Source: a virus | Reading direction: 5' to 3' (one strand) | Length of the DNA stretch: 25,152 bases | Virus record (IMG/VR): IMGVR_UViG_3300044961_000069 | Coordinates: 1 to 25,152 of that record | Shown here: piece after piece, positions 7,927 to 24,115 of the stretch | Position numbering within the stretch: position 1 is the first letter of the stretch | Layout: the number at the start of each line of letters is the position of its first letter | Translations under genes and position numbers: made by a program | Notes under the pieces: generated by a model | Databases searched by the model: none | The model's input: the letters and a program-made list of their open reading frames with translations, nothing else | Told to the model about the DNA's origin: nothing

Positions 7927-10011
7927 TTACACGCCGGTGCTGCGCCAGCCAGCGCGCCAGTCGATCGCGGCGACGCCGTAGTCCAGCCGCACCTTCATGT
8001 TGAGGGCGTCGGTCATGAACTCGATCTCGTCGTCGATGAACGGCTCCTGGACGCCGTCGAGGAAGGCGACCTCGAAGGCCTCCGCATCCATCGGATCGGC
8101 GAACAGATACCAGGGCGCGGCGGCGAGGTAGGGCGATGCCACGACCTCGAGGTTGAGCTGCGCCTGGACGTAGTTCCGCTTTGCCGAGTTGGTCTGGGAG
8201 ACGTCCGTCAGGGAGTTGAGCACCTCCCATGCGGTCTGCTTGCGATCGACCGAGCAGACGAGGAAGCGCGGCTGGATGGCCAGGTAGTCGTTCAGGCCCT
8301 TGTCGCGCTGCTTCATCATCGCCGCCTCGCCGATGGCGATGTTGGCGACAGTGATCACGCCGCTGCCGAGGTTGGCGTGTCCGCCGGCAGTGGTGACCAC
8401 CGTGTTGTTGAAGAACGCGCCGGTGTCCGACATGGTCGGGCCTGCGCCGCTATTGCTGGCGAGCAGCGTGTACACGTCCGCCTCGACGGTGCGGGCAGCA
8501 GCGCGGCCAAGGCGGGCCGCCATGCCGGTGAACGCGGCGAGGTCGTCGTTGACGATCATCTCACGGGAGAGCGAGATGTAGCGGCCCTTGGTGGCCGCCT
8601 GGATCGGCTCGCGCTCCTCGCTGATCGTGCCCTGCTGGTACTCGCCGGCCTCCGGCTTGGTCACTAGGCTCGAGAAGCTGCCGATGGTGTGGCGGCTCGC
8701 GATCTTGAAGTCGGACACGGAGCCGACCTTGCACCACCGGTTCCAGGTCACCGGTGCCAGCTGGTAGGCATTGCGCAGCACCTTCCCGGCCGCGTTGGAC
8801 AGCAGCAGCGGGAAGTCCGACGAGGTGTGCGAGGCCAGCACCTTGCGCGCGATGCCATCCTTGGTCAGGCCGCGCGTGCTCACGCCCTTCATGCTGAGCG
8901 CCGTCTCGGCCAGGTCGGCCAGCGAGCGGCCGTAGAACTCGTTGCCGGCCTCGCGCTTTTCGAGACCCGCGCGCACGAGGATCGCCTGCGCAGCGCCAGC
9001 CAGGAACTTGTCCCGGCCATCCACCACGTTGCGCGTGTCGATCGGGATCGTGGGCTCGACGCCCTCGCCCAGCTTGGCGAGCAGCTTGGCGCCGGCGGCA
9101 TCGGCCGAGCAGCTGACGTCGTCGAGGCATGCGTCGAGCAGCTCGCGATGCGACTCGGCGAACTTGCCGAACCGGTCGCGCACCGCCCGGCGGCGCTCGG
9201 CCTCGGCCGTCACGGCCGCCTCCGCCGCGTCGCGACGGGCCTTCTCAATGTCGGCGTTCTGCACCGACGCGGTTGCCTGGTCAGGCATGGTGTTGTCCTC
9301 CTCGGACTTGCTTTCGGCGTCGTTCGCCGACTTGTGGGCCGCCGCGGAACGCGGCGGGGGAACGGAAACTCGGGACTGCGCGAAGGCGCGGAACTGGGCA
9401 CTGGCGGCCATCTTGAGGGCGGCCCATGCGGCCGAGGCCTCTGAGGTGCCCTCATCCTTTTCGGCAGCCGCCGCAGCATCGGCGCGGCGGTCTGCCAGGC
9501 CCGCCTCGATCGCCTCGTCGCGGGTGAACCAGGTCTCGCCCTGCATCCACTCCTCGACCGTGGCCCTGGCTTGGCCGGTCCTGGCGACATAGGCATCGAC
9601 GAGGCCAACCTCGGTCTTGTCCAGCATCTCCGCGACGCTTCGCATGTCGTCGGAGTCGCCGATCGCGATCGTCCACGGGCTGTGCACCATGAACATCGCG
9701 CCGGTGCCCACGACGATCTCGTCGCCGGCCATGGCGATCACCGAGGCGATACTGGCCGCCAGGCCGTCCACATGCACGACGACGCGGGCCTTGTGCTCCT
9801 TGAGCGCCGTGTAGATCGCGAACCCGTCGAACACCTCGCCGCCGGGCGAGTTGATCCGGACCACGATCTCGGACACGTCGCCGAGCCCGGCGAGGTCGTC
9901 CCGGAAGCGCTTGGCGGTCAGGCCGTCGCCGAACCAGTTCTCGCCGATTGGGTCGTAGATCAGGACCTCGGCCTTGTTGCGGGCGAGAGCCCGGACCTTG
10001 ATGGAAGGCAT
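7927..10011 (-). CDS. ClpP-like prohead protease / scaffold / major capsid fusion protein
   Basis: This 694-residue protein joins two virion functions. Residues 1-175 are a ClpP/S14-type protease: INSPGGEVFDGFAIY, Ser87 in GLAASIAS, His110 in MFMVH, and GETWFTRDEAIEAGLAD, where the usual third residue appears as Glu158. A low-complexity linker (about 195-241) follows, then a charged, coiled-coil scaffold-like segment (about 242-310), then a major capsid domain (about 320-694) with long helices and the end MKVRLDYGVAAIDWRAGWRS. The fusion type is known in phages. The protease would cleave scaffold during maturation. An internal ATG at 9288 with a strong Shine-Dalgarno may also yield the capsid part alone. 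The gene follows the portal gene by three bases. Confidence 0.88.
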   Translation of the reverse strand: MPSIKVRALARNKAEVLIYDPIGENWFGDGLTAKRFRDDLAGLGDVSEIVVRINSPGGEVFDGFAIYTALKEHKARVVVHVDGLAASIASVIAMAGDEIVVGTGAMFMVHSPWTIAIGDSDDMRSVAEMLDKTEVGLVDAYVARTGQARATVEEWMQGETWFTRDEAIEAGLADRRADAAAAAEKDEGTSEASAAWAALKMAASAQFRAFAQSRVSVPPPRSAAAHKSANDAESKSEEDNTMPDQATASVQNADIEKARRDAAEAAVTAEAERRRAVRDRFGKFAESHRELLDACLDDVSCSADAAGAKLLAKLGEGVEPTIPIDTRNVVDGRDKFLAGAAQAILVRAGLEKREAGNEFYGRSLADLAETALSMKGVSTRGLTKDGIARKVLASHTSSDFPLLLSNAAGKVLRNAYQLAPVTWNRWCKVGSVSDFKIASRHTIGSFSSLVTKPEAGEYQQGTISEEREPIQAATKGRYISLSREMIVNDDLAAFTGMAARLGRAAARTVEADVYTLLASNSGAGPTMSDTGAFFNNTVVTTAGGHANLGSGVITVANIAIGEAAMMKQRDKGLNDYLAIQPRFLVCSVDRKQTAWEVLNSLTDVSQTNSAKRNYVQAQLNLEVVASPYLAAAPWYLFADPMDAEAFEVAFLDGVQEPFIDDEIEFMTDALNMKVRLDYGVAAIDWRAGWRSTGV
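9286..9303 (-). promoter_or_regulatory. Internal ribosome binding site for scaffold-capsid product
   Basis: Inside the protease-capsid gene the minus strand reads GAGGAGG (9303-9297), eight bases, then an in-frame ATG at 9288. This matches the anti-Shine-Dalgarno perfectly at ideal spacing. Starting here gives a 453-residue product from Met242, exactly where the low-complexity linker ends. The arrangement resembles lambda C/Nu3, where scaffold is started inside the protease gene. Confidence 0.65.
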
Positions 10012-15508: not shown

Positions 15509-15889
15509 TTACGGCGCGGCCGGCGCGCGGATCTCGATGCCCCACGTCGGGACAGTGACCGTGCCGCCAGAGGTCAGCGTCTGGGTCGTGCAGACAGTGA
15601 TGTAGAGCACGGCGTTGGCGTCATCGTCCACGATTGCGATGTGCGTGGCGTCACCGGATGCGGTGATGCTGAGCTCCGCCTTCTGCGCGACGTTGAGGCG
15701 ACGACCCGAGACCGTACCGTTCGCCTCGGTCAAGTCGGTGTTGGTGATCGTGGTCTCCGCAAGCTTAGCCGCAGCGAGGTTCGCGTAGACCGTCACCTCG
15801 GAATCAAGGACCAGCAGCCGACGCACGGCGCCGTTGCGGATCGAGTTGAAGCCATTGCTGTAGAAGCCGTTAGGGGCGTAGCGTGCCAT
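15509..15889 (-). CDS. Hypothetical phage virion-type protein, 126 residues
   Basis: Not recognised as a named family. It begins MARYAPNGFYSNGFNSIRNG and is rich in Ala, Thr and Val. The C-terminal half alternates like beta strands (AELSITASGDATHIAIVDDD, AVLYITVCTTQTLTSGG, VPTWGIEIRAPAAP). The ATG at 15889 has a good Shine-Dalgarno (GGAGT, eight bases away). It lies nine bases upstream of the adaptor-like gene and follows a 72-residue gene, inside the fibre cluster. A fibre or decoration role is a guess from context. Confidence 0.6.
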   Translation of the reverse strand: MARYAPNGFYSNGFNSIRNGAVRRLLVLDSEVTVYANLAAAKLAETTITNTDLTEANGTVSGRRLNVAQKAELSITASGDATHIAIVDDDANAVLYITVCTTQTLTSGGTVTVPTWGIEIRAPAAP

Positions 15890-15892
15890 CGA

Positions 15893-16111
15893 TCAGACTC
15901 CTTCTGTCTCGTTGCCGTGCACGCCATCGGCGACGGTCAACTGCTTCGGGGAAATGTCAGGAACTCCGGTCGCGAGCTCGCCGGCCGCGTCCTTTGCCCA
16001 GCCGCAGGCGCAGAAGTGGCCGGCTTGTTCTGCGGTCACCACGCGCAACTCGCCCTGGTAGTAGCTGACGCCGCCGCTGCGGAAGTTCGTGAGGATCTGG
16101 ATTCGCTTCAT
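15893..16111 (-). CDS. Small hypothetical phage protein with aromatic/GWA motif
   Basis: A 72-residue protein starting MKRIQILTNFRSGGVSYYQG. The pattern G-x-x-Y-x-x-G-E-L-R-V-V followed by a helix and FCACGWAKDA is seen in many small late phage proteins of unknown role. The ATG at 16111 starts one base after the stop of the repeat protein gene (TGACATG), so translation is likely coupled. The longer frame to 16204 overlaps that gene and is not needed. No enzymatic motif is seen. Confidence 0.6.
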   Translation of the reverse strand: MKRIQILTNFRSGGVSYYQGELRVVTAEQAGHFCACGWAKDAAGELATGVPDISPKQLTVADGVHGNETEGV

Positions 16112-16112
16112 G

Positions 16113-19100
16113 TCATTGCACCCTGTAGAGGCGCTCTTCAGGCGCCACGATGAATAGACGGCCTTCTGCGGATACCACCAAGAGGTCCGCGCCTGCGACC
16201 TCACCCGGCCGGATCAGGCTGATGAGCGAGGCAATCTGTGCGTGCACCGAGTCGCTCACAATGACAGTCGCGGCCTGCGTCAGGTCCACGATGCCAGCGA
16301 GATGTAGGTGCGCAGAAGACGCCACGGCCAGGGCGGCGCCTGCGCTCAGCTGCGGGCCATCGCTGGCCAGCGCATGGATAGCATCCGCGACCTGGATCAC
16401 GAACTCCGGCGTCAGCGCGACCTGTGCCGAGGCCATGACGTGGGCGGCGCTTCCAACCTCGAGGTAGTGTGCCTGGACCATGCTTGCCGCATCCGCCGCC
16501 TGCTCGTGGGCCGAGTCGCCCACTTGGACGAACTCCCCGATGGACAGGATTGGCTGCGTGGCGGCGTGGCCATGCGCGGCACTGAGCGCTGCGAGGACTT
16601 GGCGCTGCGTAAGGTTGACGCCCTCAGCAAAATGGCCGTGGAACGACGTCTGAACAGCAACGGATATCGCCTGCGTCAGGATCACGCCGGCGGAAACCTG
16701 CGTGTGAATCGAGCTGGCCACCTCGAGCAGAGATGCCTGCAGCAGTTCCAGACCAGAAACGAACTGCGCATGTACCGAGTCTTCTACGGTCAGTGGCGTC
16801 GCCTGAGACAGCGCGACGCCGTCGGCGGCCTGTGTGTGGGCTGAGCCCGCCACCTGTGCAATCGCTGCCTGCGTCAGTGAGGCCTCGTCGGTGGCCTGCT
16901 GGTGCGCCGAGCTTGTCGTGGTCAAGACGTGCGCCTGAGTCAGTTGCACGCCATCAGTCACATGGCTGTGGATAGAGTCAAGAGCCAGGAGCATATTGTC
17001 CTGCGCCAACCCAACACCATCCGACACGTGCTGATGGACTGAAGCAGCGGGAGCGGCAATAGAGGCCTGGGTCAACTCAGCGCCATCGGTGACATGCGCG
17101 TGGATTGAGTCCTGTGGCGAAACAGCCACCACGACGGACAACACCGGCGAGTCCGCCGCGTGCACATGAACAGACTCCTGACTGCCGAGCACAAAGCCCT
17201 GCGACAACACCACCGAATCGGAAACAAGCCCATGCTGCGAGTCAAGCGAGGCGAGCACCTGCGCCTGCGTGAGCGACACCCCATCGGTCGCATGACCATG
17301 AGCCGAGTCGCCTGCAACAAGCTCAATGCTGCCGCTGCCTTCCGGAACCTCAAGCTGCACCCACGTAACGCGGGCTTTTTCAGTGGGCTCGACTGCCCGA
17401 ATGCGAAGAAATGCCGTTGGACCCGAACCTGACGCGCTAATCGTGTAAGACCACGTTGGCGCGACGTTCGGCGTACCCGTCACGCTGTTTACGGGTGCGG
17501 TGTATATGATGTGCCTATGGTCGTTTCCACTGGTGACCGCGGTGCTCGATCTTGACGATAACGTGCCGAACGTCACATCCGTCGCTGTCAAGCTGACAGA
17601 AGATAGTGTGCCGGTATCAATGTTCTGCGCGGTAGCGACCAGCATGAGGTCGCCTGCGCTGAAAGTCAGGTTACTTGACGACGTGGCGCTGTAACTCGTG
17701 TCATTCGTGGTGTCCGCGCCAGTTCCAATAGACTCCGTAATGACGAGCCCCGACGGCGGCTGCACGCGAACAATCGAGGCCCGCATCGTGTTATTGGTTG
17801 AACCGGACAACGTGACCGTGATCGTGCCTGACTCGCTGCCCGTCACCGTGTCCTTGCGGAAGATGGCAACGCGCCGGGTGCCAGTATCAGCTCCCCACGT
17901 CCCAGTGCCGCCCTCAAGGGAACCGATCAGCGTCCAATCACTAGGAGCGGCGAACTCTGTGTTAGCCGTATTCGATCGCCCTGTGACGACGAGATACAGA
18001 GCGCTTTCTGACGTAATGCCACTTGGATATGACGGCGTGCAAGAAGTCGTGCCGTTCGCGCCTGTGCCGATCGCGCCATATTCGACAGCGACAGAACCCG
18101 GGTTGTCTGCTGCGGCCGTCTCGAACTCGACACGCAGACCGGCGTAGCTGCTAATGGACTCCGTAACCGTGCGCTCGTACAGCGTCAATGCGCCGAGCGG
18201 ATCTGTCGTCCACGACTGAATGGTGGCGTTGGAGCTATCCAGCAGCCGTGCTATCAGCTTCCTTAGCTGGGACCCACCTGCCGCGTAGCGCAGCGTCCTC
18301 GGGCCAGATTCGGGCGTACTGAGCGCCGCGAGGCCCAGTCGCATCGTGCTGTTGCTGTCAACACTGGCATAGTCAGCATCGTCACGAGTTGCTTCGTCGA
18401 GCACACCATACAGTGTGGAGCCCGTTGAAGGCGTCCAGCTCCCAGCACTTATGTCCGAAGTCGGTGCGGCTGTTTGAGGCGTGCCGCTAGTAGTGCCCTT
18501 GATCTCGATGCCGACGAGTGCCCAACGCTGCCCGCCGGGAGCCGATAGGCCGATGGTTTTCGAGCCTGCTGCACCCGCGTTCGCGTGATAGCCTGCATAG
18601 TTCGTGTAGTACGAGGAATCGTGAAAGTACAATTCCTCCGTGAATGTGCCCGCGTCGCTCGTGCGATAGGTGCGCGATGCACCGTCAAGCGCGTTCCAGT
18701 CAGTACTGACGTAGGTAATTGCACTGTTGGCTTGCGTCGTACTGGCCGTGGCACTCGGCGCACTGTTATCGCCGGAGGCACCGAACACCGTGCCGAAGCC
18801 ATCGGAGTCGCGCCACACCTCGACGCGGAACCCGTACCAGCCGCTAAAGTTGCTGCCAAGATCGACGCCAAAACTGGTTCCGCCAGACACCGACGTGATG
18901 GTAGCGGTCCAGAGTTGTGCGCGAGGGTCTAGAGCACCCGGTGTTCCGGTCGGCTGCGTGGCCTCTAGCGTGAAGGCCGAGGCCGTGGCGAGGCCCGTCG
19001 CAGTCGGAGTCGAAAAGGTCGTGCCGGCATTCTCAGCAACCGCCTTGACGACGATCAGGTCGCCGACCTGAACCGTCAGGCCGGAGACCGATTTGCTTGT

Positions 19101-19547
19101 GGCCGCGCTGTTGTAGCTAGATGCCGCCGTTGCTACAAAAGTCGGTGCTGCCATGTCAGGCGGCCCTGTCGGCGGCGTTGCCGCTGCCTTCCACGTGATG
19201 ACGAGATTGGTCACCTCGCCCGGTAGCAGCAGCGAGAATGTCTTGCTCCCCTCGTTCGAGCGGGCACTCTCGCCGTCCACGTTGACGGCTGTTACCTGCC
19301 AGTAGCACGTCGTCCCGTCCGGCAGGCCCGAGCGCACGGCGGAGGTAGCCGTGGGCGGCAGCGAGATCGGCGAGCCGTAGCCCGCCGTCCCGCAACGCTC
19401 GTACAGCCTGTACTCGGTGAGCGCCTTCGCCCCCGTGAGCGGTGAGCCGTCCGTCGCCTGCGTCGGAGCGGTCCACGAAATTGTCGCCGTGCCCGCAAAC
19501 GCGGGGAGCGAACTCAGGCACAGGAGGACGGCAGTGAGCCACTTCAC
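16113..19547 (-). CDS. Large secreted-type fibre protein: FN3, beta-sandwich domains, 17 His repeats
   Basis: This 1144-residue protein is the largest in the window. The frame is open to 19820, but the GTG at 19547 overlaps the previous stop (GTGA) and yields a clear signal peptide (VKWLTAVLLCLSSLPAFA, cut before Gly19). In order: an FN3 domain (about 19-105), a beta-sandwich (about 135-350), a jelly-roll-like part (about 365-480), two similar Ser/Thr/Gly-rich beta domains (about 485-720), 17 tandem 22-residue repeats (743-1116), and a hydrophobic tail (LLVVSAEGRLFIVAPEERLY). Domain type and size suggest a tail fibre or receptor-binding protein, but the signal peptide is odd for a virion protein. 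Two sampled 60-base lines (17521, 18001) have 57% GC, against 73% in a terminase line. Confidence 0.8.
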   Translation of the reverse strand: MKWLTAVLLCLSSLPAFAGTATISWTAPTQATDGSPLTGAKALTEYRLYERCGTAGYGSPISLPPTATSAVRSGLPDGTTCYWQVTAVNVDGESARSNEGSKTFSLLLPGEVTNLVITWKAAATPPTGPPDMAAPTFVATAASSYNSAATSKSVSGLTVQVGDLIVVKAVAENAGTTFSTPTATGLATASAFTLEATQPTGTPGALDPRAQLWTATITSVSGGTSFGVDLGSNFSGWYGFRVEVWRDSDGFGTVFGASGDNSAPSATASTTQANSAITYVSTDWNALDGASRTYRTSDAGTFTEELYFHDSSYYTNYAGYHANAGAAGSKTIGLSAPGGQRWALVGIEIKGTTSGTPQTAAPTSDISAGSWTPSTGSTLYGVLDEATRDDADYASVDSNSTMRLGLAALSTPESGPRTLRYAAGGSQLRKLIARLLDSSNATIQSWTTDPLGALTLYERTVTESISSYAGLRVEFETAAADNPGSVAVEYGAIGTGANGTTSCTPSYPSGITSESALYLVVTGRSNTANTEFAAPSDWTLIGSLEGGTGTWGADTGTRRVAIFRKDTVTGSESGTITVTLSGSTNNTMRASIVRVQPPSGLVITESIGTGADTTNDTSYSATSSSNLTFSAGDLMLVATAQNIDTGTLSSVSLTATDVTFGTLSSRSSTAVTSGNDHRHIIYTAPVNSVTGTPNVAPTWSYTISASGSGPTAFLRIRAVEPTEKARVTWVQLEVPEGSGSIELVAGDSAHGHATDGVSLTQAQVLASLDSQHGLVSDSVVLSQGFVLGSQESVHVHAADSPVLSVVVAVSPQDSIHAHVTDGAELTQASIAAPAASVHQHVSDGVGLAQDNMLLALDSIHSHVTDGVQLTQAHVLTTTSSAHQQATDEASLTQAAIAQVAGSAHTQAADGVALSQATPLTVEDSVHAQFVSGLELLQASLLEVASSIHTQVSAGVILTQAISVAVQTSFHGHFAEGVNLTQRQVLAALSAAHGHAATQPILSIGEFVQVGDSAHEQAADAASMVQAHYLEVGSAAHVMASAQVALTPEFVIQVADAIHALASDGPQLSAGAALAVASSAHLHLAGIVDLTQAATVIVSDSVHAQIASLISLIRPGEVAGADLLVVSAEGRLFIVAPEERLYRVQ
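16200..17321 (-). repeat. 17 tandem 66-bp units coding a 22-residue His repeat
   Basis: The units code, in consensus, L-x-V-x-D-S-x-H-x-H-x-x-D-G-V-x-L-T-Q-A-x-x. All 17 are exactly 22 residues with no insertion, and His at position 8 is present in every one. Position 10 is His in eight, Gln in six and Leu or Met in three. DNA of the units has diverged strongly, so the periodicity is kept by selection on protein rather than by recent duplication. Such HxH repeats resemble metal-binding shafts of trimeric tail fibres. Confidence 0.9.
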
Positions 19548-19957
19548 GGAGCCGGCACAGTCTGCACGGTGACCGCACATGACGGCAGGCCGCTCGGGTG
19601 CTGCTGACAAGTCAGCGTGATCGTGAAGTTGCTCGGTGCGCCGGGCACGTCGGGCAGATCGGTCACGTTGACCACTGCGATGTTTGAGGACGGCCCCTCC
19701 CCCGCGCTGTTCACGCCATGCACGCAGAAGGAATACTCGCCCTGCGCCGTCAGCAGTCCGGTGAACGTCTGACCGCTGGTCACGGTGCCGACGAGTGCCT
19801 TGGTCTCGCCCGCACGACATCCACGGTACAGCCGGTGGCTGGTGGCATTCGGCGCGGCGGTGAACGTCGCCGTGATGTCATACGGCGGAGCCGACATCGC
19901 TGAGAACGAGCACGCGGCGCCAATCAGCGCACTGGCGACAAGGGCAATGAGCCGCAT
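19544..19957 (-). CDS. Small FN3-like protein with signal peptide
   Basis: The 137-residue product begins MRLIALVASALIGAACSFSA, a Sec signal peptide with a likely cut near AMSA-PP. A Cys at position 16 sits in GAAC, which is not a good lipobox. The mature part is one FN3-like beta domain (YDITATFTAAPNATSHRLYR, TFTGLLTAQGEYSFCVHGVN, then SNIAVVNVTDLPDVPGAPSN) with a C-terminal Cys pair. The start at 19957 has a strong Shine-Dalgarno (AGGAGT, seven bases). It is the first clear gene of the late operon and is coupled (GTGA) to the large fibre-like gene, whose first domain is also FN3. An exported accessory or a phage surface part are both possible. Confidence 0.75.
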   Translation of the reverse strand: MRLIALVASALIGAACSFSAMSAPPYDITATFTAAPNATSHRLYRGCRAGETKALVGTVTSGQTFTGLLTAQGEYSFCVHGVNSAGEGPSSNIAVVNVTDLPDVPGAPSNFTITLTCQQHPSGLPSCAVTVQTVPAP

Positions 19958-22852: not shown

Positions 22853-23331
22853 GCGGCGAGGTCCCGGAACATGATCCGGTGCGGCGGGTACTTCGCTGGA
22901 TCGTGCAGATCCTGCGGAATGATCACGCCCAGGTAGTCGGCGCCGTGTTCCGAAACGTGCTCCTTCGCCGCGGTCACGCCCGGGAACCGCCTCACGATCC
23001 ATGACCAGGTGGCGGCTCTCTGCCAGTCGGACAGTGGCCGCCGGAGCGCGGCCGCCATGATCGCAGCCCGGTTGTCGGCCGGCGTGGTGCCGTCGGCCGT
23101 CGAGGGATTGCGGACCGTCTTGCGGATGGTCCACAGCCCGCTCGCGGTCGGGATCTTCTCGGGGCCGTGCTCGCCCAAGGCGTAGCCGACGCAGCGGATG
23201 AACTCGGCCAGATGCATGCGCTGGAGGCCGTTCCAGTAGGCCTCGACGCGCTCGGGCGTCGCCGGCACGTTGAACCCGGCGCACAGGACCTTGGCGTGGT
23301 GGTCGAATTCGGGGCGGTCAACTGGCTGCAC
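22849..23331 (-). CDS. Putative replication accessory protein (helicase-loader-like)
   Basis: A 160-residue protein following the initiator gene, in the place of lambda P. Its middle (RVEAYWNGLQRMHLAEFIRC, then ALGEHGPEKIPTASGLWTIR) has the helix-rich pattern of phage replication partners: a Y-W-x-x-L helix followed by a Pro-Thr turn and a second helix. A region around LSDWQRAATWSWIVRRFPGV is also helical. No ATPase motif is present, which fits a P-type loader rather than DnaC. Start is GTG at 23331 with GAGG six bases upstream, overlapping the initiator gene by 14 bases. The exact family is uncertain. Confidence 0.5.
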   Translation of the reverse strand: MQPVDRPEFDHHAKVLCAGFNVPATPERVEAYWNGLQRMHLAEFIRCVGYALGEHGPEKIPTASGLWTIRKTVRNPSTADGTTPADNRAAIMAAALRRPLSDWQRAATWSWIVRRFPGVTAAKEHVSEHGADYLGVIIPQDLHDPAKYPPHRIMFRDLAA

Positions 23332-24115
23332 GGCGGGCCTCGTCGGCTTCGATTTCCTCAAGGGTTCGCAGGCGGAGTCGCTTGCGGGCGTAGCTGTTCC
23401 GATCGCGGGCGTTGCGCATCCAGATGCGCCAGCACGCCGGCCAGTCCTTGCGGGGCTTCTGGAACTCGAAGTCACGGAACTTCGCAGTCTCGGCGTCGAG
23501 ATCGAAGTCGGGCGGCAGTTCCGCACTGATGGCGCGCAGCTGGTCGGTCAGCTCGAAGTCTGTTGGGCATCGCCTGCTCGGACGCGCCTCCCGCCGCGAG
23601 GCGGGAGCCCTTCCCCCCTGAAGGGGGGGTAGGGGGGGTATATTCTTGTCTGAGTCTGAGTCTGAGTCTGAGGGGTCGGACATAGGCGGACACCGGCGGA
23701 CACCGGCGGACACCGGCGGACATTCGCCAGTAGTCCGAGCGTGATGCTTCCGCTGCGCTTCCTTCCCGCTGGCGACAGCCTCCGAGTTCTTCGCCGCGAG
23801 GCGCGCCTTCTCCCGGTACTTGCTGTGGTTGACGAGTCGCCAGCCCCAAGCCGTGTTCTCTCTGATCCTGACGAGACGACGCCCATCGTCCAGGGGCGAC
23901 CGGCTATGCGGGTCGGGCTGCTCGAGTTGAGCGATCCCCTGGCGCAGCAGATCCTCGGGCCAGCCCGTCACCGCGGCGAGGTAACCGAAGCTGAAGTCAA
24001 TCTCGCCGTTGCGGTCGGCGAGCGGCAGCAGGGTGCAGAACACCGCCAGCGCCGGCCACTGCCCGCACAGCGATCCCTGGAAGAGCGAGCCGAAGACAGG
24101 CGTGTAGCCGCTCAT
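23318..24115 (-). CDS. Replication initiator, O-like (winged helix plus DnaT-like C-terminus)
   Basis: The 265-residue protein has an N-terminal winged helix of the phage replication organiser type (about 1-115): GYTPVFGSLFQGSLCGQWPA, IDFSFGYLAAVTGWPEDLLR, WGWRLVNHSKYREKARL. A repetitive linker (about 131-156: CPPVSAGVRRCPP, SDSDSDSD) is followed by a DnaT-like domain (about 180-245) with DFDLDAETAKFRDFEFQKPR and KDWPACWRIWMRNA. The protein would melt or mark the origin and recruit a helicase loader. The repeats encoding the linker look like the origin itself, as in lambda O. The ATG at 24115 lacks a good Shine-Dalgarno and lies 14 bases after the HTH gene stop. Confidence 0.72.
   Translation of the reverse strand: MSGYTPVFGSLFQGSLCGQWPALAVFCTLLPLADRNGEIDFSFGYLAAVTGWPEDLLRQGIAQLEQPDPHSRSPLDDGRRLVRIRENTAWGWRLVNHSKYREKARLAAKNSEAVASGKEAQRKHHARTTGECPPVSAGVRRCPPMSDPSDSDSDSDKNIPPLPPLQGGRAPASRREARPSRRCPTDFELTDQLRAISAELPPDFDLDAETAKFRDFEFQKPRKDWPACWRIWMRNARDRNSYARKRLRLRTLEEIEADEARRAAS
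23587..23630. other. Two hairpins flanking the candidate origin
   Basis: CTCCCGC (23588-23594) pairs with GCGGGAG (23601-23607). Just beyond, a run of C (23613-23618) pairs with a run of G (23623-23629) around TGAA. Both are inside the initiator gene, next to the AT-rich patch. Confidence 0.5.
23648..23671 (+). repeat. Four tandem GTCTGA hexamers (candidate origin part)
   Basis: Four perfect head-to-tail copies of GTCTGA, adjacent to an AT-rich patch (TATATTCTT, 23638-23646) and to the decamer array. In the initiator gene they encode Ser-Asp repeats. Confidence 0.7.
23676..23725 (+). repeat. Five 10-bp iterons, GCGGACACCG (candidate origin)
   Basis: Units at 23676, 23686, 23696, 23706 and 23716. 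The middle three are identical (GCGGACACCG) and the outer two keep GGACA. The 10-base period puts each core on the same helix face, as initiator-binding iterons do. They lie in the linker-coding part of the initiator gene. Confidence 0.65.

Follow-up and report, generated by a model that had tools for sequence, protein, structure and literature searches.

A 22-residue HxH repeat, widespread and uncatalogued in environmental phages, is a candidate stalk of virion adhesins

Layers of six histidines that hold iron between three chains are established in T4 gp37, in pyocin fibres and in P2-type spikes (PMC6116203), and further precedent for HxH iron layers in trimeric fibres exists (PMC6957217). 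In T4, alanine mutants of H929 and H931 lose plaque formation (PMC6957217). The statement in the preliminary description of the present locus, that HxH motifs of the T4 long-fibre tip bind iron between three chains, agrees with both sources. Alteromonas phage R22Y gp12 has been modelled with AlphaFold as a trimer with iron in its HxH layers (PMC11705849). It is a clear member (47.8 bits) of Pfam PF12789 (PTR, phage tail repeat-like), which by sequence appears to be the nearest known family to the repeat described here. In PF12789 arrays successive HxH motifs follow at intervals of exactly 22 residues (20 steps counted in 7 phages), a spacing that R22Y gp12 shares.

The window, which is the whole stretch of DNA analysed, is an entire IMG/VR virus record of 25152 bases. 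Its minus strand carries a set of siphophage genes (NlpC-like, tail-assembly, tape measure, major tail protein, portal, terminase and minor tail protein), upstream of which lies the gene for a protein with a long array of 22-residue units. The array gene, its parts and its neighbours are the following.

16113..19547, minus strand: array-bearing protein of 1144 residues, with a GTG start at 19547, a GTGA overlap and a signal peptide at the start
19494..19547, minus strand: predicted Sec signal peptide, MKWLTAVLLCLSSLPAFA, suggested by the sequence and an AxA cleavage motif
19236..19490, minus strand: possible fibronectin type III-like domain (Pfam fn3, E=0.12, below cut-off; a weak match)
17325..19154, minus strand: putative beta-rich domains preceding the array, from comparison by eye
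16203..17324, minus strand: 22-residue array of 17 gapless units, read directly from the sequence, unit 1 starting at 17324 and unit 17 ending at 16203
16113..16202, minus strand: Arg-containing C-terminal tail, EVAGADLLVVSAEGRLFIVAPEERLYRVQ
15893..16111, minus strand: conserved small gene of 72 residues adjoining the array gene
15509..15889, minus strand: 126-residue partner gene, weakly matching PHROG 3758 (virion structural, head; E=2e-4)
19544..19957, minus strand: upstream gene with a predicted signal peptide and FN3-like sequence, sharing 4 bp with the array gene

The length of 1144 residues originally given for the array protein stands provided that the GTG at 19547 is the start; the longest ORF containing the array (16113..19820, minus strand) has 1235 residues instead. 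The first 91 residues of this ORF resemble out-of-frame sequence, and the GTG, which shares 4 bp (GTGA) with the stop of the upstream gene, is the first codon of the signal peptide. An internal ATG before the beta-rich domains (MAAPTFV...), which by eye resembles the N-terminus of Octadecabacter phage DB2 gp11 (MAAPLVV...), is a possible alternative start. Two successive genes at 19494..19957 (minus strand) each encode a signal peptide followed by FN3-like sequence and are joined by the GTGA overlap, the second being that of the array protein. Many relatives have a short, Arg-rich C-terminal tail of the R-x-h-h-V type. The C-terminus of the 72-residue gene product, QLTVADGVHGNETEG (LDIxNSTLGxxS in relatives), looks like half a repeat unit.

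The array had been described as 17 units of 22 residues free of indels at 16200..17321; this is the identical array in a register one residue later, so that positions 8 and 10 of that description are positions 9 and 11 here. At 66 bp per unit, the number of units and their gapless spacing are confirmed, as are the invariant histidine (H9 in 17 of 17 units) and the composition of position 11 (H 8, Q 6, L 2, M 1); L18 is present in 16 of the 17. Column identity at period 22 is 0.329, compared with 0.099 +/- 0.005 in shuffles (n=1000, maximum 0.117), more than forty standard deviations above them, and falls to 0.09 and 0.08 at the flanking periods 21 and 23. An 11-residue sub-period (0.197) was rejected, as it comprises 22-residue comparisons. 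At the DNA level the units are on average 46% identical (30-62%), codon position 3 agrees between units in 36% of cases vs 51-52% for positions 1 and 2, and Tandem Repeats Finder sees no 66-bp array in the window. Since the DNA units have diverged while the 22-residue period has been kept, the spacing can fairly be attributed to selection at the protein level, as was proposed at the outset. The window sequence itself is confirmed by a near-identical contig, IMGVR_UViG_3300044998_000159. A full HxH is present in 8 of the 17 units and missing from nine, and the window array is for this reason a degenerate member of the family to which it belongs.

With the window array as query, matches are limited to the near-identical contig and Microcystis phage Mae-JY22 (8 units), the latter being independent of the seed profile used below. 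The whole protein finds nothing beyond the near-identical contig, the query P0002 gives no match, and a profile of mixed units lacks any conserved stretch. A degenerate DNA pattern (encoding HAHxADN, then a hydrophobic residue and L) hits viral contigs in 78 stretches. The profile recognises 74 array loci, including the near-identical contig and Mae-JY22 and comprising a few near-duplicates of one another; because the pattern demands HAH and ADN, the loci are biased towards canonical units. The profile search of phage proteins suggested in the preliminary description therefore finds a repeat common to many phages. A contig identical in sequence to the window scores 397 bits with the seed profile, which included window units. 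By profile, the window array falls within the new family as defined by L2, H9, L18 and a spacing of 22 residues.

The 74 loci contain about 800 units with the consensus TLVIQDATHAHTADNLTLTQAH, in arrays of 2 to 29 units. Of about 730 steps between units, 629 are of 22 residues and most of the remainder of 24, with extra residues between units. Among 774 distinct units from 68 loci, H9 is conserved in 98-99%, H11 in 89%, L2 in 96%, L18 in 88% and D/E14 in 92%. An array of 17 units is thus long but not exceptional, and the 'unusual length' first attributed to the shaft is not quite right, given that other arrays reach 19-29 units. Two close relatives (loci L066 and L037) have 14 vs 11 units with matching ends, which indicates that array length changes by whole units. 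A Parazoarcus prophage (L088) has 6 units, a globular insert of ~190 residues and then 12 units; 4 of 369 genomes sampled from the Parazoarcus class match. Globular segments of about 190 residues or more between blocks of units are seen at L079 3022-5010 and L088 6165-8822. The Mae-JY22 (XAI95683) and Parazoarcus proteins, annotated as hypothetical or not annotated, belong to the same repeat family as the window protein and share its C-terminal tail type or its partner gene; they differ from it in unit number (8 and 6+12) and N-terminal domains, and no signal peptide is seen in them.

The repeat has no family of its own in Pfam, PHROG or NCBIfam, and a literature search for a phage repeat of 22 residues, HxH or beta-solenoid, led to the work on R22Y, pyocin and T4 alone. 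The window has no match to PF12789 (cut-off 27 bits). It resembles the PTR proteins (R22Y gp12, Bacillus phage G gp369) in HxH, in an exact 22-residue period and in being a phage protein. The units differ: that of PTR is HxHxIxDIxGLQxALDxKAxxx, whereas that of the window is LxVxDSxHxHxADgVxLTQA and all-beta in prediction. On the PF12789 hallmark of HxH at 22-residue spacing, the period holds in 17/17 units and HxH in 8/17 in the window, and HxH in 89% across the new family. The window is not filed as a member of PF12789, although it may work like one. The T4 gp37 needle, the R-type pyocin fibres and the P2/phi92 spikes are comparable to the array in HxH and in a possible six-histidine layer from three chains. 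However, the array gene lies mostly near head genes and has no sequence match to PDB chains; moreover, the solved HxH fibres cited have one to seven sites, whereas the present arrays reach up to 29 units at fixed spacing.

Within the unit, charge is restricted to position 6 (73%), position 14 (about 93%, acidic) and, to a lesser extent, 17 and 21. Lysine and arginine together make up 0.34% of the arrays vs 6.7% elsewhere in the same proteins, and positions 1 and 3 are largely aliphatic or Ala. Where position 11 is not His, it is Gln (56 units), Leu, Val, Met or Phe (25 units) or rarely another, small polar residue, and never a charged one. A hydrophobic residue at 11 is accompanied by Ser13 in 25/25 units, compared with 36/687 of those with H11 (Fisher 1e-29, a value overstated because the units of one array share ancestry through duplication). 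The coupling is seen in ten loci, and leaving out the window units gives 22/22. Such strictness suggests that the side chains at 11 and 13 sit next to each other on one face, which is probably buried.

A sister form of the repeat lacks HxH. Octadecabacter phage DB2 gp11 matches the family profile (E=4e-5) and is built of a 22-residue repeat, LTADxVExASExTAPxxGQTHA. Its gene (MW805364.1, locus L087 7065-8591), located beside tailspike and tail fibre genes, is annotated as ribonuclease E, which is probably a misannotation. With a pattern based on DB2, the sister repeat LTANDVESASEVSAPALGQVHA was also found in L104-L109 and L111. The best of 22 cyclic registers superposes L2, D6, A10, L18, Q20 and H22 on the HxH unit (permutation p 2e-4); as the sister search pattern demanded L18-G-Q20-x-H22, the test was repeated with DB2 alone, and the register is identical (p 0.007). 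The sister proteins are like the window protein in their 22-residue period, register and similar N- and C-terminal parts, but instead of HxH their units mostly have Ser at 9 and 11, Glu at 8 and 12, and P16. One sister protein (L107) and one HxH protein (L032) have an N-terminal domain in common (40% over 134 aa, 7e-17). These data suggest that one chassis can carry either repeat and that the fold does not need the histidines. Glu at 8 and 12 places positions 8, 10 and 12 on what is likely the outer face. Since 11 is never charged and is strictly coupled to 13, and since the sister has its Glu opposite, the histidine side chains probably face inside. Metal does not seem to be needed for the fold, because HxH is missing from nine of the 17 window units and from the sister altogether.

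Two single-chain AlphaFold runs (alignments of 68 and 38 rows) yield all-beta models of low confidence (pLDDT 59 and 62; pTM 0.42 and 0.57). The second, on nine units of L066, has the identical three strands in every unit (22-5, 8-14 and 17-18), with two models near pLDDT 62 and three at 42-48. Foldseek matches of the model are led by beta-helices or pentapeptide solenoids, with TM at most 0.42. In sequence searches, the NosD profile scores 10.5 bits on the window array, below its cut-off of 23.6, and 30.5 bits on L052, above it; the family profile finds no match among solved structures in the PDB to E=10, T4 gp37 included. A PDB sequence match to OspA (E 0.12) was taken as chance. The low-confidence models would fit an unsure monomeric beta-solenoid or one chain of an intertwined oligomer.

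In the genomes, array distances are about 2-23 kb to the terminase gene and about 5-30 kb to that of the tape measure, and in L069 and L054 the arrays are well beyond the latter. When the longest ORFs within 3 kb are taken as neighbours, head and packaging genes predominate, drawn from many different families; this choice of neighbour itself favours such genes. The 126-residue partner gene, for which no annotated phage homologue was found, accompanies the array in 46 of the 74 loci, on the same strand and no more than 2.4 kb away, and is also present in DB2. A carbohydrate-binding module (CBM96) is above cut-off in L010, and L030 has a weak match to the lectin-like Laminin_G_3. Together, these domains and the virion-family neighbour in 46 loci support the reading of the array protein as a likely virion-attached adhesin stalk.

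The explanation that we tentatively prefer, at slightly less than an even chance, is a virion adhesin stalk with inward histidines, most likely a metal-pinned trimer. The array would form the stalk of an adhesive protein of modular build, attached to the virion. In each unit, strand 22-5 would lead through a turn at D6 to the HxH strand 8-14 and, after another turn at D14-N15, to the short strand 17-18, with residues 9, 11 and 13 inside and 8, 10 and 12 outside. By analogy with the known fibres, three chains would most likely wind together and the six histidines of each HxH layer would hold one metal ion, setting the chain register and stiffening the shaft. Units with Gln11, or with a hydrophobic residue at 11 and Ser13, would be metal-poor or plugged layers, and 8 of the 17 layers in the window phage could be full six-His sites. 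The stalk would lengthen or shorten by gain or loss of whole units. Against the metal-pinned trimer stand the monomer solenoid model, the NosD match of L052, the window units and the sister without HxH, and the want of a sequence match to solved HxH fibres. A bolder form of the proposal, that up to about 29 six-His metal layers pin three chains and that phages swap this shaft with the metal-free Ser/Glu sister on one chassis, is plausible but more doubtful.

The same models could be taken to represent a single-chain parallel beta-solenoid, in which each unit is one coil, the histidines form one or two ladders with metal between coils or absent, and D14-N15 is likened to the Asn ladder of pectate lyases. 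Twenty-two residues are a typical coil length of right-handed beta-helices, as in NosD and pectate lyases, and the three regular strands in each of the nine L066 units, the leading structure matches and the NosD score of L052 all point this way. However, the window fails the NosD profile, a pLDDT of 62 is low for a supposedly easy monomeric solenoid, TM-scores to real beta-helices are poor, and positions 1 and 3, expected to face solvent, are largely aliphatic or Ala. This reading is rather unlikely, if a serious one. Still less likely is a purely structural role, in which H9 and H11 would be packed against D6, D14 or Ser13 in the stalk core and hydrogen-bonded to them, as a folding solution. 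The acidic residues at 6 and 14 that flank the HxH strand, the occurrence of Gln, or of a hydrophobic residue paired with Ser13, in place of H11, and the use of Ser at both 9 and 11 in the sister are consistent with this role. Nevertheless, near-invariance of H9 in very diverse phages, with HxH in most, is hard to explain without a special function, since Ser, Asn or Gln would usually suffice.

Kinship with PF12789 concerns descent and is compatible with the metal-pinned trimer. The repeat would be a diverged PTR member, with the same HxH shaft and the alpha-helical half swapped for beta strands, an idea that is plausible without being the likelier outcome. In addition to the shared spacing, one of about 50 relatives, L055, passes the PF12789 cut-off (32.8 vs 27 bits) and several match below it, the two profiles agree in their best cyclic register, though HxH contributes to this, and R22Y matches the new profile (E=0.003). 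On the other hand, the window and most relatives have no PTR match, the hhalign probability between the families is 3.6%, similarity outside HxH is borderline (permutation p 0.05-0.10), and the match of L055 could stem from HxH and period alone. A signal peptide would be unusual in a virion protein and counts against the virion reading. It raises the prospect that the array protein is secreted or displayed on the infected host surface; the upstream window gene also combines a signal peptide with FN3. We consider this quite improbable, as only the window protein and L005, out of about 70 relatives, have the signal peptide, as what looks like the usual start (MAAP.., MAT..) comes after this added piece, and as array genes are located among virion genes.

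The repeat is thus widespread in environmental phages and uncatalogued; its units show a strict internal coupling, and it has a sister that lacks HxH. It occurs in many unrelated phages, yet has no family model, and its proteins are labelled hypothetical or, probably wrongly, ribonuclease E. If the HxH layers hold metal, more ions per fibre would be possible than in the described cases, with consequences for fibre design and for the idea of virus-borne iron (Ferrojan or Trojan horse). The Ser/Glu sister provides a natural control for the function of the histidines.

Several loci (L040, L043, L044 and L082) have two or three array-bearing genes each. A third related-looking array, ITGQQTHELTAEATxxxxTxSAS, is present at L103 4001-4846, its QxHxL part being common with the unit. 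Elsewhere in the window, a ClpP-like head maturation protease and a capsid protein are fused in one 694-residue ORF (7927..10011, minus strand; PHROG 133 and Phage_capsid_4). Short tandem repeats at 23622..23722, namely AGGGGGGGT, GTCTGA x4 and CGGACACCGG x4.6, sit within a putative replication gene (23318..24115), where they code for SDSDSDSD and similar sequences.
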